From NCBI RefSeq assembly GCF_000384155.1, contig NZ_KB913031.1, forward strand, positions 2,536,961 to 2,600,960: a stretch of DNA of 64,000 nt. The letters are read 5' to 3'. Numbering within the stretch: position 1 is the stretch's first letter; the number at the start of each line of letters is the position of its first letter. The position numbers and the translations under genes were made by a program. The DNA comes from Methylophilus sp. 42 (GTDB taxonomy: Bacteria; Pseudomonadota; Gammaproteobacteria; Burkholderiales; Methylophilaceae). This document shows, piece by piece, positions 26,621 through 51,964 of the stretch. Below the pieces are notes generated by a model. That model did no database searches, was not told where the DNA came from, and saw only the letters and a list, made by a program, of their open reading frames with translations.

Positions 26621-27298
26621 ATGTATCGTCATTTATTTACCAGCCTGGCGTTGATCGCCACCATGAGTTTTGCCGGGCAGGCAGCCGCGTTAACCACCCC
26701 ATACACCGAAACCTTCACAGACGGTCTTTCCGGCTGGACGACCGGCAGCAACCCTAACCAGATTGTTGCCAACGGTGGCGCGGATGGTGGTGCCTACCTC
26801 AGCACAACTGCCAGCCCGACGGCCAGCGCCTTTGGCTCGGTAGCCGTGTTATTCCGCTGCGAGAGCGCAGCTTGTAGCGATGGCGCTTTCCAAGGTGACT
26901 GGCGTGACGACCTGGTATTTAGCTGGTACTTCCGCCACGATGCCGATATCGCCCTGCAAGCCTATGCCCGTATTGCCGCCCCGTCCAACAACCCTGGCGC
27001 CAGCGCGATTGTTTCCACCTGGGTAGAGCCTAACACCTGGACGCGCATTGACCTGGTCATTGACCCATCCAACCCGGCATTCACCAGCTTCTCAGGCCAA
27101 TCATTTGATGCGGTATTTGATGAGGTAGGTCGCGTTCAGCTTGGCATCAGCCTGCCAGCAGGGTTCAGTGGCAGTAACCTGCGTTTTGACCTGGACGCCG
27201 TGAGCATTTCTACGGTACCAGAACCGGAAACCTACGCGCTGATAGGCGCTGGTTTATTGTTGATGGGTGCTGCTAGCCGTCGCCAGCGCAAACAATAA
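26621..27298 (+). CDS. PEP-CTERM sorting-domain exported protein
   Basis: This 225-residue protein has an N-terminal signal peptide (about 1-23, ending GQAAA) and a typical PEP-CTERM tail: VPEPETYALIGAGLLLMG, then the basic ASRRQRKQ. Such tails are processed by an exosortase during export to the cell surface or matrix. The middle (residues ~25-195) is beta-rich with two cysteines (CESAAC) and an FSWYFRHDADIALQAY stretch, resembling carbohydrate-binding/jelly-roll domains; no ligand can be named. A GAAGAGG ribosome site precedes the ATG. No exosortase is in the window. Confidence 0.88.
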   Translation: MYRHLFTSLALIATMSFAGQAAALTTPYTETFTDGLSGWTTGSNPNQIVANGGADGGAYLSTTASPTASAFGSVAVLFRCESAACSDGAFQGDWRDDLVFSWYFRHDADIALQAYARIAAPSNNPGASAIVSTWVEPNTWTRIDLVIDPSNPAFTSFSGQSFDAVFDEVGRVQLGISLPAGFSGSNLRFDLDAVSISTVPEPETYALIGAGLLLMGAASRRQRKQ

Positions 27299-27311
27299 CT
27301 GGTGTGATCTG

Positions 27312-27359
27312 AAAAAGGCGTTATCTCCAGCGAATATGCTGAGGGGTGACGCCTTTTTT
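27312..27359 (+). terminator. Terminator after the PEP-CTERM gene
   Basis: The outer stem AAAAAGGCGT / ACGCCTTTTTT encloses a loop with its own short CAGC/GCTG hairpin. The T-run follows. Confidence 0.75.
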
Positions 27360-27415
27360 GTTGTTTGATATGTGAATGATTTGGCTGTAATGTTGGCTGA
27401 GTTATGTACGGTTTC

Positions 27416-28070
27416 TTTCGCCTTGTCGGCGAGTCACTTTCTGATGCTTGCCCCTCAGAAAGTAACCAAAGAGGAGGGCACCCAGCCATCACGGCCTACG
27501 GCTCCCTTGCGTTGCTCAACAAAATAAGTCGGTCACGAAACTCAACCTGGCAGCTCACACAAAACGTGAGCTGCTGCGGGATTCGAACAGTCGCTCCCTC
27601 TTCTCTTATTTTGTTTCCGCTACTCAGCGTGATGGGATGGGACTTATCTCATCTAACTTGCATGGATTTAGTTTGGACGGTTTAAAAACCGGATTCTTTT
27701 GTTAAACCTGCTAAACGGTGGCGCTCGCGGGTGTTCGGGGTCCCCATCTGCCGCGCCGAGCAACGCAGGGTTGACGGGAGTCTTCGGCCATCGGCTGTTT
27801 GAGCTCCGCAACAAGCCACGTCTTGTGTGGCTTGTCAGGGCGAGTTTCGATGGACGCCCGGTAAGCCGAGTAGCGCAGGATAAAAGCGGAAGCTGGGGTG
27901 TCTTGTTCTTTGCCTTCTTTCTTATGGACAAGCATAAGAAAGAACGGTCGCCGAAAGGGCGAAATAGATCAATCATAGAATAGTCTTCGCTTTGGGCAAG
28001 CAAAGAAAAGTAACTCGCCGAAAAGGCGAAACAAAACACTAACCAAAACACAAACCTAAGAATGACCTTC
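27416..28070 (+). repeat. Near-palindromic intergenic element, copy 1
   Basis: About 650 bp between convergent genes. The left end TTTCGCCTTGTCGGCGAGTC mirrors the right end (reverse complement GTTTCGCCTTTTCGGCGAGT). Just inside the left end is the hairpin CTTTCTGATGCTTGCCCCTCAGAAAG. The core runs from GGGGTCCCCATCTGCCGCGC (27737) through AGGGCGAGTTTCGATGGACG (27837). The right end is double: an inner terminus at about 27949-27966 and an outer one at 28012-28033, with the outermost AAGAATGACCTTC at 28058-28070. Long open frames on both strands are by-products of the repeat. Confidence 0.85.
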
Positions 28071-32958: not shown

Positions 32959-33568
32959 TTTCGCCTCTAGGCGAGTCACTTTCTGATGCTTGCCCCTCAG
33001 AAAGTAACCAAAGAAGAGGGCACCCAGCCATCACGGCCTAACGGCCCCCTTGCGTTGCTCAACAAAATAAGCGGTCACGAAACTCATCCTAGCGGGCTGC
33101 ACACTACGCAGCCCACCGCGGGACTCGGACAGTCGCTCCCTCTACTCTTATTTTGTCTCCGCTACTCAGCGTGATGAATGGGATTTATCTCGCCAAACTC
33201 ACATTGGCGAAGTTTGGACGGTTCAAAAACCAAATTCGTTTATTAAAACTACCAACCATTGCGCTCACCTGGTGTTCGGGGTCCCCATCTGCCGCGCCGA
33301 GCAACGCAGGGTTGACGGGAGTCTTCGACCATCGGCTGTCTGAGCTCCGCAACAAGCCACGAAGTGTGTGGCTTGTCAGGGCGAGTTTCGATGGACGCCC
33401 GGCAAACCGAGTAGCGCAAGGAAGAAGCGGAAGCTGGGGTGTCTTGTTCTTTGCCTTCTTTCTTATGGACAAGCATAAGAAAGAATGGTCGCCGAAAAGG
33501 CGAAATAGATAGTTCATCAAACAACCTTCACTTTGAGCAGCAAAGAAACTCGCCAAGAAGGCGAAACA
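32959..33568 (+). repeat. Near-palindromic intergenic element, copy 2
   Basis: About 610 bp between convergent murI and the zinc-finger gene. It starts with TTTCGCCTCTAGGCGAGTCA and the same CTTTCTGATGCTTGCCCCTC hairpin as the other copies. It closes at GCCAAGAAGGCGAAAC (33553-33567), with an inner terminus at about 33489-33507. Most of it is colinear and highly similar to copy 1. Weak similarity to the outermost end of copy 3 (GAAAGTAACTCT, 32907-32918) suggests the original element began earlier. Confidence 0.85.
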
Positions 33569-49800: not shown

Positions 49801-49875
49801 ACAGCAACGTTCTTGACGTTGTTTGTATTGCCGATTTTGTATCAGCACTTTTTTGGTTCAAAAAGTATGGATTGA
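46801..49875 (+). CDS. Heavy-metal efflux RND transporter (CzcA/CusA family)
   Basis: This 1024-residue inner-membrane pump has twelve transmembrane helices and two large periplasmic loops. The N-terminus IPIDAFPDVSATQVKI is typical of heavy-metal RND proteins. The TM4 segment reads GGLAIAIGMLVDSAVVVVENIVEH: it keeps one aspartate and the glutamate, but not the DFG aspartate of CzcA, and lacks the methionine pattern of CusA. The metal is therefore open. GLDPMGINQTDNFLLLKPR and AKRRLRPVLMTASITAFGLIPLL are further family blocks. It is last in the operon; the next sequence is repeat copy 3. Confidence 0.94.
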   Translation: MLDWLIETSLKQRLLICVFAIGLLFAGWTAYQTIPIDAFPDVSATQVKIIIKSPGMTPEEVEARITAPIEVEMLGIPKQIGLRAVAKYALTDITIDFEDGTDIYWARQQVTERLNNAWANLPAEISGGIAPMTTPLGEMFMFTIESNTLSLQEKRTLLDWVIRPRLRTVPGVADVNALGGLVRSFEIVPDNAQLQARGIALNDVQTAISDNNHNDGAGRLKDGEESLLVRAEGAFKTLDDVRNTVIKGHQGSPIRIADVADVRIGELTRYGAVSRNGKGEAVEGLVLGLRGANARQVVEGVRTKLAEISPSLPKDVKIEVFYDRGNLVDRAVHTVNKALLEAVILVFVLLVLFLGNLRAALTVACALPLAILATFGLMQRYGLSANLMSLGGLAIAIGMLVDSAVVVVENIVEHLAHTPATKKHSKLDTILAAMREVSIPVSAGIVIIITVFVPLLTLQGLEGKLFAPVALSIMFALGSSLLLSLTIIPVLASFLIKNQATTEPWLIRHLNRWYARTLATAMQHKRPVLLVAVILLVLTAVVYPLIGKTFMPTMDEGDVIIGTEKLPSISLAQSVATDSHLQQTLLQQVPEIQGVYSRAGSDELGLDPMGINQTDNFLLLKPRAQWQVADKAALIEKLRRVMHGIPGLDYNFTQPIEMRVNEMILGVRGDLALKIFGTDLKVLDQKAQAIIKVLESIPGNQDVYTPQNSGVQYLQIKIDRVAAGRLGLSIADINTLLQSQLEGKLLGIVLEGNRRTPILLRGSQVVRESASDFSQLMLALPQGGTVPLSSVANVVREEGPVKIDRERGNRMVVVTANVKDRDLVSFVEEAKQKVTQQVKLPEGYWLVWGGQFENQQRAAARLSIVIPIAIVLIALLLFMTFGSFPKALLVLANIPFAMIGGVFALWLSGEYLSVPASVGFIALLGIAVLNGVVMVSHFQQLAEQGMDASKIAYEGAKRRLRPVLMTASITAFGLIPLLFATGPGAEIQRPLAIVVIGGLITATFLTLFVLPILYQHFFGSKSMD

Positions 49876-49880
49876 TTGCT

Positions 49881-50493
49881 GAAGGTAATTCTTCTTTTTG
49901 GGTATTGTGCGTTTAAGTAACAGCTTATTTCGCCTCTAGGCGAGTCACTTTCTGATGCTTGCCCCTCAGAAAGTAACCAAAGAAGAGGGCACCCAACCAT
50001 CACGGCCTTACGGCTTCCTTGCGTTGCTCAACAAAGTGGGCGTCCATCGAAACTCGCCCTAGCGGCTTGCACACCCCGCAAGCCACCGCGGAACTCGAAC
50101 AGCCGATGGCCGACATCCCCCACTTTGTCTCCGCTACTCAGCGTGATGGAATGGGATTTATCTCACCAAACTGACATTGTCGAAATCTGAACGACTCAAA
50201 AACCGGATTCTTTTATTAAGCCCTCTAAACGATGGCGCTCACCTGGTGTTGGGGGCCCCCATCTGCCGCGCCGAGCAACGCAGGATTGGCGGGGGTAGTC
50301 GGCAAGCAACTGTCTGAGCTCCGTAGGAGCGAGTTTTTGATTGCCGCCCGACAATCCGAGTAGCACAGGAAACAAGCGGAAGTTGGGGTGCACTTTCTTT
50401 TGGTTACTTGTTCTTTGTGCAAGCAAAGAAAAGTAACTCGCCTAGAGGCGAAACAAAATGCCACTTAAACGCACAAACCTAAGAATTACCTTC
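49881..50493 (+). repeat. Near-palindromic intergenic element, copy 3 (most complete ends)
   Basis: About 613 bp filling the space between the RND gene stop (49875) and the lnt stop (50486-50488). Inverted ends: GAAGGTAATTCTT (49881-49893) pairs with AAGAATTACCTTC (50481-50493); then TTGTGCGTTTAAGT; then TTTCGCCTCTAGGCGAGT at 49928, matched exactly by 50437-50454. The right end reaches the last lnt codons. The left arm contains GGGCGTCCATCGAAACTCGC (50039-50058), the exact reverse complement of a right-arm stretch in copies 1 and 2. In this copy only one right terminus is present. Confidence 0.85.
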
Positions 50494-51964
50494 TAAACTC
50501 AATCAACAACAAGCCACCAATACTCAACACCAGAAACGCCCAGTTCCCCCAAAAAACATAAGGCGTCTGCCCCCGATAGCTCTGCGCTTCACCGGTCAAA
50601 ATCACCGCCTGATCATGTGCGGCATGCTGCAGTACCTGGCCATTTTTATCGATAATCGCCGTCGCCCCAGTATTGGTGCTACGCAATACCATACGCCCGG
50701 TTTCCAGTGCACGCACCTGGCTAAATTGCATATGCTGGTCCGCCGCAAACGATTGTCCGTACCAGGCATCGTTGCTGATATTCACCAGTAACTCGGCTTG
50801 CGGCAGTTGCTGGGCAATCTCTTCACCAAACACGTCTTCGTAGCAAATATTGACGCCAACTTTTTGCCCGGCAATCAGCAATGGCTGCTTTGAAGTGCCG
50901 CGTGATAAATCACTCAGCGGCATATGCAACCAGTCACGGTAAATCCAGCCGAAGACGCTTTTGAGCGGAATAAATTCGCCGAAGGGCACCAGATGGCTTT
51001 TGGAATAGGCTTGCGTTGGTGACGTACCGAGGCTGATTGCGCTATTAAAATATTCACCTTGTCTAGACTCAACGACGCCTACCAGTAAGTCGCCTTGCTG
51101 GTCGAGCGCATGTTGTTTAAGTGCATCCAGATACACTGGCGCCAGCTGTTCGAGCAACACCGGTAAAGCGGTTTCCGGCAAGACAATCAATTGCGCTTTG
51201 GCTTGCTGCACCATGTCGAAATATTGGCGCAAGGTCTGCTCAGCATGCTCGGGCGACCATTTGATGGTTTGGCTGATATTGCCTTGCAATAAAGCGACGC
51301 TGACCGGCTGACCCACAGCTTGGCTCCACGGCACTTGCGTGAGTGCGCTGCCGCCTACGAGCAACGCAACAAGGATACCCGCTGAGCGTAGACGCTGCTG
51401 AGTGGTGGCCAAGGCAAGTACACATGCGGCCAACAGCATCACCAATGCCGAGAGTCCATAGACACCCAGCACAGGTAGAAAACCTGCCAATGGACTGTCT
51501 GGTGCTTGACTATAGCCCAGCGTTAACCAGGGGAAACCGGTAAAAATCCAGCTGCGCACCCAGTCTGACAAGGCCCATAATAACGGCGCAGCCCATAACA
51601 AATGGCCCAGCCGCTTGGCCAGATAACCCGCAACTGCCGGGAACAGGGCCATAAACGCACACAGGCAGAAAGTGCAGAACCCGGCAAACCACCAGGGCAT
51701 GCCGCCAAAGGTATGCAGGCTGATATAAATCCAGTAGATACCAACACCATACAGGCCAAGACCAAAAGCCAGGCCCAGTTTAAATACGTGTGCAGGCGTT
51801 GCGGCTTGCTGCCATAAGCACAGCAAAGCGGCCAGGGTTAACCAGGGCAACCAGAACAGGCCATAAGGTGCAAAACCCAGCACCGTGAGTGCACCGATCA
51901 AAAGCGCCAGCGAGGCACGTTGCCACAACGGGGCATGGCTTACCCAGGCTTGAACAGAACTCAA
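50486..51964 (-). CDS. lnt: Apolipoprotein N-acyltransferase
   Basis: This 492-residue inner-membrane enzyme adds the third acyl chain to lipoproteins. It has about eight N-terminal transmembrane segments and a periplasmic nitrilase domain with the catalytic triad: glutamate in VLPETALPVLL, lysine in YSKSHLVPFGEFIP and cysteine in VNICYEDVFGEE. The start is TTG at 51964, overlapping the stop of the upstream deacetylase gene (TTGA). The last codons lie inside the terminal repeat of copy 3. Confidence 0.96.
   Translation of the reverse strand: MSSVQAWVSHAPLWQRASLALLIGALTVLGFAPYGLFWLPWLTLAALLCLWQQAATPAHVFKLGLAFGLGLYGVGIYWIYISLHTFGGMPWWFAGFCTFCLCAFMALFPAVAGYLAKRLGHLLWAAPLLWALSDWVRSWIFTGFPWLTLGYSQAPDSPLAGFLPVLGVYGLSALVMLLAACVLALATTQQRLRSAGILVALLVGGSALTQVPWSQAVGQPVSVALLQGNISQTIKWSPEHAEQTLRQYFDMVQQAKAQLIVLPETALPVLLEQLAPVYLDALKQHALDQQGDLLVGVVESRQGEYFNSAISLGTSPTQAYSKSHLVPFGEFIPLKSVFGWIYRDWLHMPLSDLSRGTSKQPLLIAGQKVGVNICYEDVFGEEIAQQLPQAELLVNISNDAWYGQSFAADQHMQFSQVRALETGRMVLRSTNTGATAIIDKNGQVLQHAAHDQAVILTGEAQSYRGQTPYVFWGNWAFLVLSIGGLLLIEFRR

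Follow-up and report, generated by a model that had tools for sequence, protein, structure and literature searches.

Telomerase RNA pseudoknots and MALAT1/ENE form triple helices in which a loop of pyrimidines occupies the major groove of an A-rich stem, with a second stem alongside. Among bacterial repeats, the REPIN/BIME elements are presented in the excerpted text of PMC3116915 as intergenic inverted doublets with units of 20-60 nt and compensatory changes in their hairpins. In Pseudomonas fluorescens, the R200 and R26 repeats measure 320 and 352 bp, and intergenic repeats are biased towards a tail-repeat-tail arrangement (PMC2718517, in the portion available to us). Two RNA systems are also pertinent. 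CsrA/RsmA targets A(N)GGA where it lies in the loop of a hairpin, according to the relevant passages of PMC4066749 and PMC7366521, and TwoAYGGAY (Rfam RF01731) was described as probably an RNA, and not a cis-regulatory one, from the human gut, gammaproteobacteria and Clostridiales (Weinberg et al. 2010, PMC2864571, in the part that deals with this motif).

We analyzed a repeat of Methylophilus sp. 42 that shares traits with each of these systems. Like REPIN/BIME (as excerpted), it forms intergenic inverted doublets with compensatory hairpin changes, but its halves are about 220 nt long, no RAYT is linked to it and its sites are fixed. Its size and site bias are similar to those of R200/R26 as far as these are described in the available text, the comparison being one of descriptions and not of sequences. 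In relatives of the element from other bacteria, the outward strand of the inner domain matches the TwoAYGGAY model next to the same end module, whereas the copies in the window (the whole stretch of 64,000 nucleotides that was analyzed) have neither AYGGAY loops nor a match; the accessible part of the TwoAYGGAY description (PMC2864571) mentions no end module, doublet form or conversion. The relatives resemble CsrB and RsmX/Y/Z in having ANGGA hairpins whose loops are constant while the stems vary freely, but the element is dispersed in many copies near gene ends, is not known to have a promoter or terminator of its own and is loop-less in Methylophilus. As in telomerase RNA and MALAT1/ENE, its pyrimidine loop is predicted to lie in the major groove of a stem beside a second stem; its triple helix differs in being bacterial and predicted purely from covariation. 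A search of main texts in the literature, which included the letters of the end motif, returned no description of the composite element. The earlier note knew of no functional description; for the inner domain of many relatives there is a partial one, in that it has CsrA-type hairpins and in some cases is TwoAYGGAY.

Form, copy number and sites of the element

The earlier note had placed three copies in the window. All three are there, and the number proved to be an understatement, since a search of the source genome gave 61 matching places, some of them partial or overlapping. The features in the window are as follows:

27416 to 28031, plus strand: core of copy 1, with an extra right end (about 27985-28031)
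32959 to 33566, plus strand: core of copy 2
49928 to 50453, plus strand: core of copy 3, the most symmetric of the three
49881 to 49900, plus strand: left outer inverted motif of copy 3, belonging either to the element or to its old target
50474 to 50493, minus strand: right outer inverted motif of copy 3

Full cores start with TTTCGCC, mostly finish with GGCGAAA and are about 480-650 bp long. With up to 3 mismatches allowed, the window contains 3 occurrences of the end motif and 100 shuffles contain none. The inverted halves that had been noted are best seen in copy 3, whose arms comprise 58 nt (83% complementary) and 31 nt (77%) and whose outer pair (49881-49900/50474-50493) is 85% complementary; copies 1 and 2 have a different right end, which is extended. 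Folding of copy 3 gave z scores of -9.2 (plus strand) and -12.3 (minus strand), and 0/100 shuffles were as low. The proposal of a full-length palindrome was borne out insofar as one strand of copy 3 folds as a single long hairpin, but the conserved unit is the half, consisting of an end module and a branched domain, and not the full-length hairpin. Each copy is made of two inverted halves of ~220 nt without a common open frame, in many copies a left-half query hits the opposite end in inverted orientation, and at one locus of another genome (L044 in G011) the halves alternate in an array.

The outer inverted motif accompanies many copies, mostly 30-55 bp beyond the core and sometimes near 77. 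Within 5 mismatches, it was present on the right side of 50/87 copies and on the left of 25/87, compared with 3/174 in the control, and outer-like motifs are retained in the missing-copy allele of G021/G014. Other sites inspected in the source genome read as chance, and the motif was rejected as a free repeat. About 110 nt of the left flank of copy 1 (27200-27370, with a terminator-like hairpin) are common to another copy of the same genome, L019; the shared flank may reflect duplication of a gene end together with its element.

Matching of flanks produced 29 site clusters, at least 2 of which merge more than one site, and 26 were present in more than one genome. Of 56 copies from four other species (15, 15, 15 and 11 from G008, G010, G002 and G005), sampled from places listed by similarity to copy 3 and hence leaning to good copies, 52 occupy sites also occupied in the source genome, and the remaining 4 share one site at which the source genome keeps only a remnant. 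Judged by their flanks, the sites of the element are old and fixed across species. In 101/104 pairs, orthologous copies resembled each other less than a copy resembled its best paralogue in the same genome, with the flanks of orthologous sites being 85% alike on average. The nearest neighbour of a copy was in the same genome in 51/81 cases (17.9 expected) and was the orthologue in 4. Greater likeness to paralogues than to orthologues at fixed sites is a mark of ectopic gene conversion, which very probably keeps the copies alike within each genome. The element is thereby a clear example from nature of how intergenic repeats, dispersed but fixed in place, evolve in concert. Flipped cores, present in 7/29 site clusters, are what recombination between the inverted arms would give.

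Across the genomes shown, and over the part of the site compared, the RND-lnt site (that of copy 3) varies by species in its interior but retains its outer flank motifs. Two sites followed in nine genomes contained copies that were intact, partial, decayed or missing, and neither a clean empty site nor a target-site duplication was recognised at them. Plasmid or phage carriage was rejected, as the query matched no phage record and just 2 plasmid records, over 11-12% of its length. Two copies at the RND-lnt site of G005 (L294 and L229) have a short inverted piece between the left hairpin and the remaining half, which splits the end module.

The end module and the inner domain of each half

The element matches 20/22 genomes of the same genus, and a strict end pattern was found in 10/274 genomes of the class, source included. 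Among the matches listed, the end motif occurs in Pseudomonas, Xanthomonas, Lysobacter, Dyella, Methylobacter, Thiobacillus, Rhodoferax, Aggregatibacter, Methylophilus and others, and in at least 5 gut or rumen contigs, with L135 and L151 being weak. In 31 chosen genomes there were 1 to 25 matches each, and an inverted partner lay within 1.1 kb of 23/72 copies compared with 0/113 control stretches. The half recurs across Proteobacteria and in a few clostridial contigs. Three clostridial or gut contigs (L094, L130 and L157) have the end motif and a helix of 4 to 6 bp between loop and downstream sequence; NGGA hairpins were absent from them, and no CsrA match was found in their genomes.

The consensus of 36 aligned ends reads GGCGAG-T(T/C)ACTTT-stem-loop-stem-AAAGTAACCAAA-spacer, followed by the pairing partner of the loop. 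The hairpin loop pairs downstream in 56/94 hairpins (22.3 +/- 3.6 in shuffled sequences), 244/334 spacer positions mirror the purine strand of the stem (162.5 +/- 7.3 shuffled), and 157/169 purine-purine cells match A to A or G to G; these statistics ignore kinship, so the contrasts are too optimistic, yet the variants switch across many genera. On the opposite, outward strand, the order of the module is S2, pyrimidine loop, S1. The three covariations, in S1, in S2 and in the third strand, agree with an H-type pseudoknot that has a U.A-U/C.G-C triple helix on that strand, again with statistics that ignore kinship. This predicts a long bacterial RNA triple helix that is open to standard probing. 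In copy 3, the predicted parts are:

50389 to 50436, plus strand: proposed pseudoknot of the right end
50389-50393 with 50417-50421: S2 of the right-end pseudoknot, 5 bp
50394-50401: third strand of the right-end pseudoknot, with the triple code fitting at 8/8 positions
50404-50416 with 50425-50436: S1 of the right-end pseudoknot
49944 to 49996, minus strand: proposed pseudoknot of the left end, with an S2 of 5 bp and a partial triple match

S1 length and S2 position are only loosely correlated (0.29), although their offset is 0 in 24/56. Among 162 Methylophilus ends, S2 was found in 102 (78 left, 24 right), 44 fell outside the search pattern and 16 were without S2. The earlier note had named covariation and cross-genome conservation as marks of a structured element, and a transposase or a coding pattern as evidence against it. 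The former two were found, in stems, S1/S2 and third strand (with kinship ignored) and in the same-genus genomes and other bacteria; the latter two were not found in the copies.

The branched inner domain of the relatives contains hairpins with NGGA loops, which are confined almost entirely to the outward strand. In 77 broad halves, 67 such hairpins were on the outward strand, 6 on the other strand and 5 in flanks. A set of 48 halves gave 66 versus 3, with 0.056 per half in shuffles, but is redundant within itself and with the first set; its 27 further distinct halves, which give the clean count, have 43 outward and 0 on the other strand. The loops are mostly CANGGATG and the stems vary around them. 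A CsrA match was found in 24/28 genomes whose copies carry loops and in 11/31 genomes without loops (p 1.5e-4), in a table of 59 genomes that was tallied by hand, omits G022 (copies unscored) and counts one genome twice (G049/G347). The beta and gamma lineages differ in CsrA, and kinship may explain part of this link. The four loop-bearing genomes without CsrA are drafts, one of them (G297) at 89% completeness and the other three metagenome bins, and 11 genomes with CsrA have loop-less copies. In the source genome, G008 and G010 there is no CsrA match, and the 164 Methylophilus halves contain just 1 outward and 3 sense NGGA hairpins and thus lack AYGGAY-type loops.

Scanning of 66 sources (L064 given twice), most of them without a match, detected RF01731 at the gathering threshold 16 times, 13 of them distinct, in relatives with the end module. 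All 16 matches have the end module on the 3' side of the RNA. This ties an orphan Rfam RNA, TwoAYGGAY, to CsrA by way of hairpin loops and co-occurrence. No TwoAYGGAY match at the gathering threshold was found in the window, in 49850-50520 (E 5) or in 17 own copies (E 1), and weak Rfam matches in copy 3 and own copies were rejected as far below threshold. By their ends and form, the window copies are assigned to the family of the element and not to Rfam TwoAYGGAY.

A candidate role in RNA, and the alternatives

We propose a noncoding element in which a structured module occurs as an inverted doublet. Read outward, each half would run from a branched stem domain through the H-type pseudoknot to a small hairpin (P1), with the pyrimidine loop of the pseudoknot held in the major groove of the long stem by U.A-U and C.G-C triples. 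The symmetry of the doublet means that transcripts reading through from one or the other of two convergent genes would end in this cap, the likely job of which would be to shield or define the 3' ends of the meeting transcripts. In lineages with CsrA/RsmA, the branched domain often has ANGGA hairpins and could dock CsrA, as sequence and co-occurrence suggest. The copies sit at old fixed sites and are homogenised by ectopic gene conversion with occasional flipping of the core, as comparison of the copies shows. The one-strand ANGGA hairpins, the pairing of the loop with downstream sequence, the triple code and the CsrA link argue for RNA. The whole chain, in which a gene-converted module at RNA 3' ends is represented in Methylophilus by a loop-less cousin of TwoAYGGAY, is on balance the probable reading, if by a narrow measure. 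We put forward more tentatively, as something close to an even chance, the broader picture of a dispersed, gene-converted RNA module ranging from Proteobacteria to Clostridia, which has a telomerase/ENE-like pseudoknot at its 3' end, would often serve as a CsrA dock with a TwoAYGGAY core where CsrA exists, and would have lost the loops but kept cap and fixed sites in the CsrA-less Methylophilus.

Pairing in the stems is strictly Watson-Crick, with almost no G.U (38 G.T and 31 A.C among 5288 cells; 9 G.T and 13 A.C in the broad stems). Single mismatches on the sense strand are more often A.C than G.T (40 versus 21, and 70 versus 16 in Methylophilus), an excess that base make-up may explain. The scarcity of G.U leaves room for a role at the DNA level. 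The triples rule out G.U within S1 but leave it possible in the other stems, and intermediates can be erased by conversion. A REPIN- or MITE-like element that a nuclease had spread long ago by recognising its hairpins as cruciform or single-stranded DNA, and whose palindromes stay perfect through template switching and conversion without any RNA function, would account for this strict pairing. It would also account for the inverted doublets and the alternating array, which are known from REPIN/BIME (PMC3116915, as excerpted), and for a bias to convergent sites like that of Pseudomonas repeats (PMC2718517, in the available portion), and the mirror repeat could form H-DNA. We nevertheless consider this reading rather unlikely. 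A linked Y1 transposase was rejected for the loci searched, as the profile matched 1/103 loci, about 6.8 kb from the motif, and 5 copy-rich genomes (G003, G004, G008, G010 and G017) have no Y1_Tnp match; in addition, the sites are fixed over species, and one-strand ANGGA hairpins, Rfam matches and loop-downstream pairing are unexpected of plain DNA palindromes.

The position of the element relative to genes bears on a further possibility, namely that it is a bidirectional terminator or insulator (e.g. Rho-dependent) where genes converge, acting through its C-rich, G-poor sense strand and not through the pseudoknot. The genes were called by an in-house codon score, so that single calls may err, and L029, L030, L031 and L056 were removed as duplicates before loci were counted. 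Of 87 loci in five genomes (one copy, L301 = L028, being counted twice), 53 lie between convergent genes, 25 between tandem and 3 between divergent genes, with 6 unresolved. In the source genome alone, 17/28 elements are at convergent sites (p 5e-8), compared with 46/347 gene pairs in the background. At tandem loci, both genes run opposite to the plus strand of the core in 19/25 (p 0.015, orthologues included), and in broad relatives a gene points at the half in 27/48 cases upstream and 33/48 downstream. Gene ends facing the element have fewer intrinsic terminators (15/121) than length-matched controls (25.9 +/- 4.0), and C exceeds G in 57/64 sense halves, as a terminator would have it. However, some genes flanking elements do have intrinsic terminators, one of the two sites followed across genomes (site 2) has a terminator both with and without the element, and the end module is unnecessary for termination, which makes this explanation quite improbable. 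There is next to no chance that the copies are protein-coding or gene remnants, since the frames of 119-134 aa that overlie copies 1 and 2 are open in just 4, 1 and 3 of 78 other copies and have substitutions spread nearly evenly across codon positions, by which coding is refuted for them and short open reading frames on such repeats become likely annotation errors.

Two further repeats were seen in or beside copies from other species. A very long nested palindrome, possibly a second repeat, lies inside the branched domain of a half in G097 (L062). In addition, small palindromes, GTAGGGTGGGCAT-ATGCCCACGCGG and GTCATTCCGGC...GCCGGAATCC, adjoin many elements (e.g. L058, L336 and L341); they look like separate REP-type repeats.
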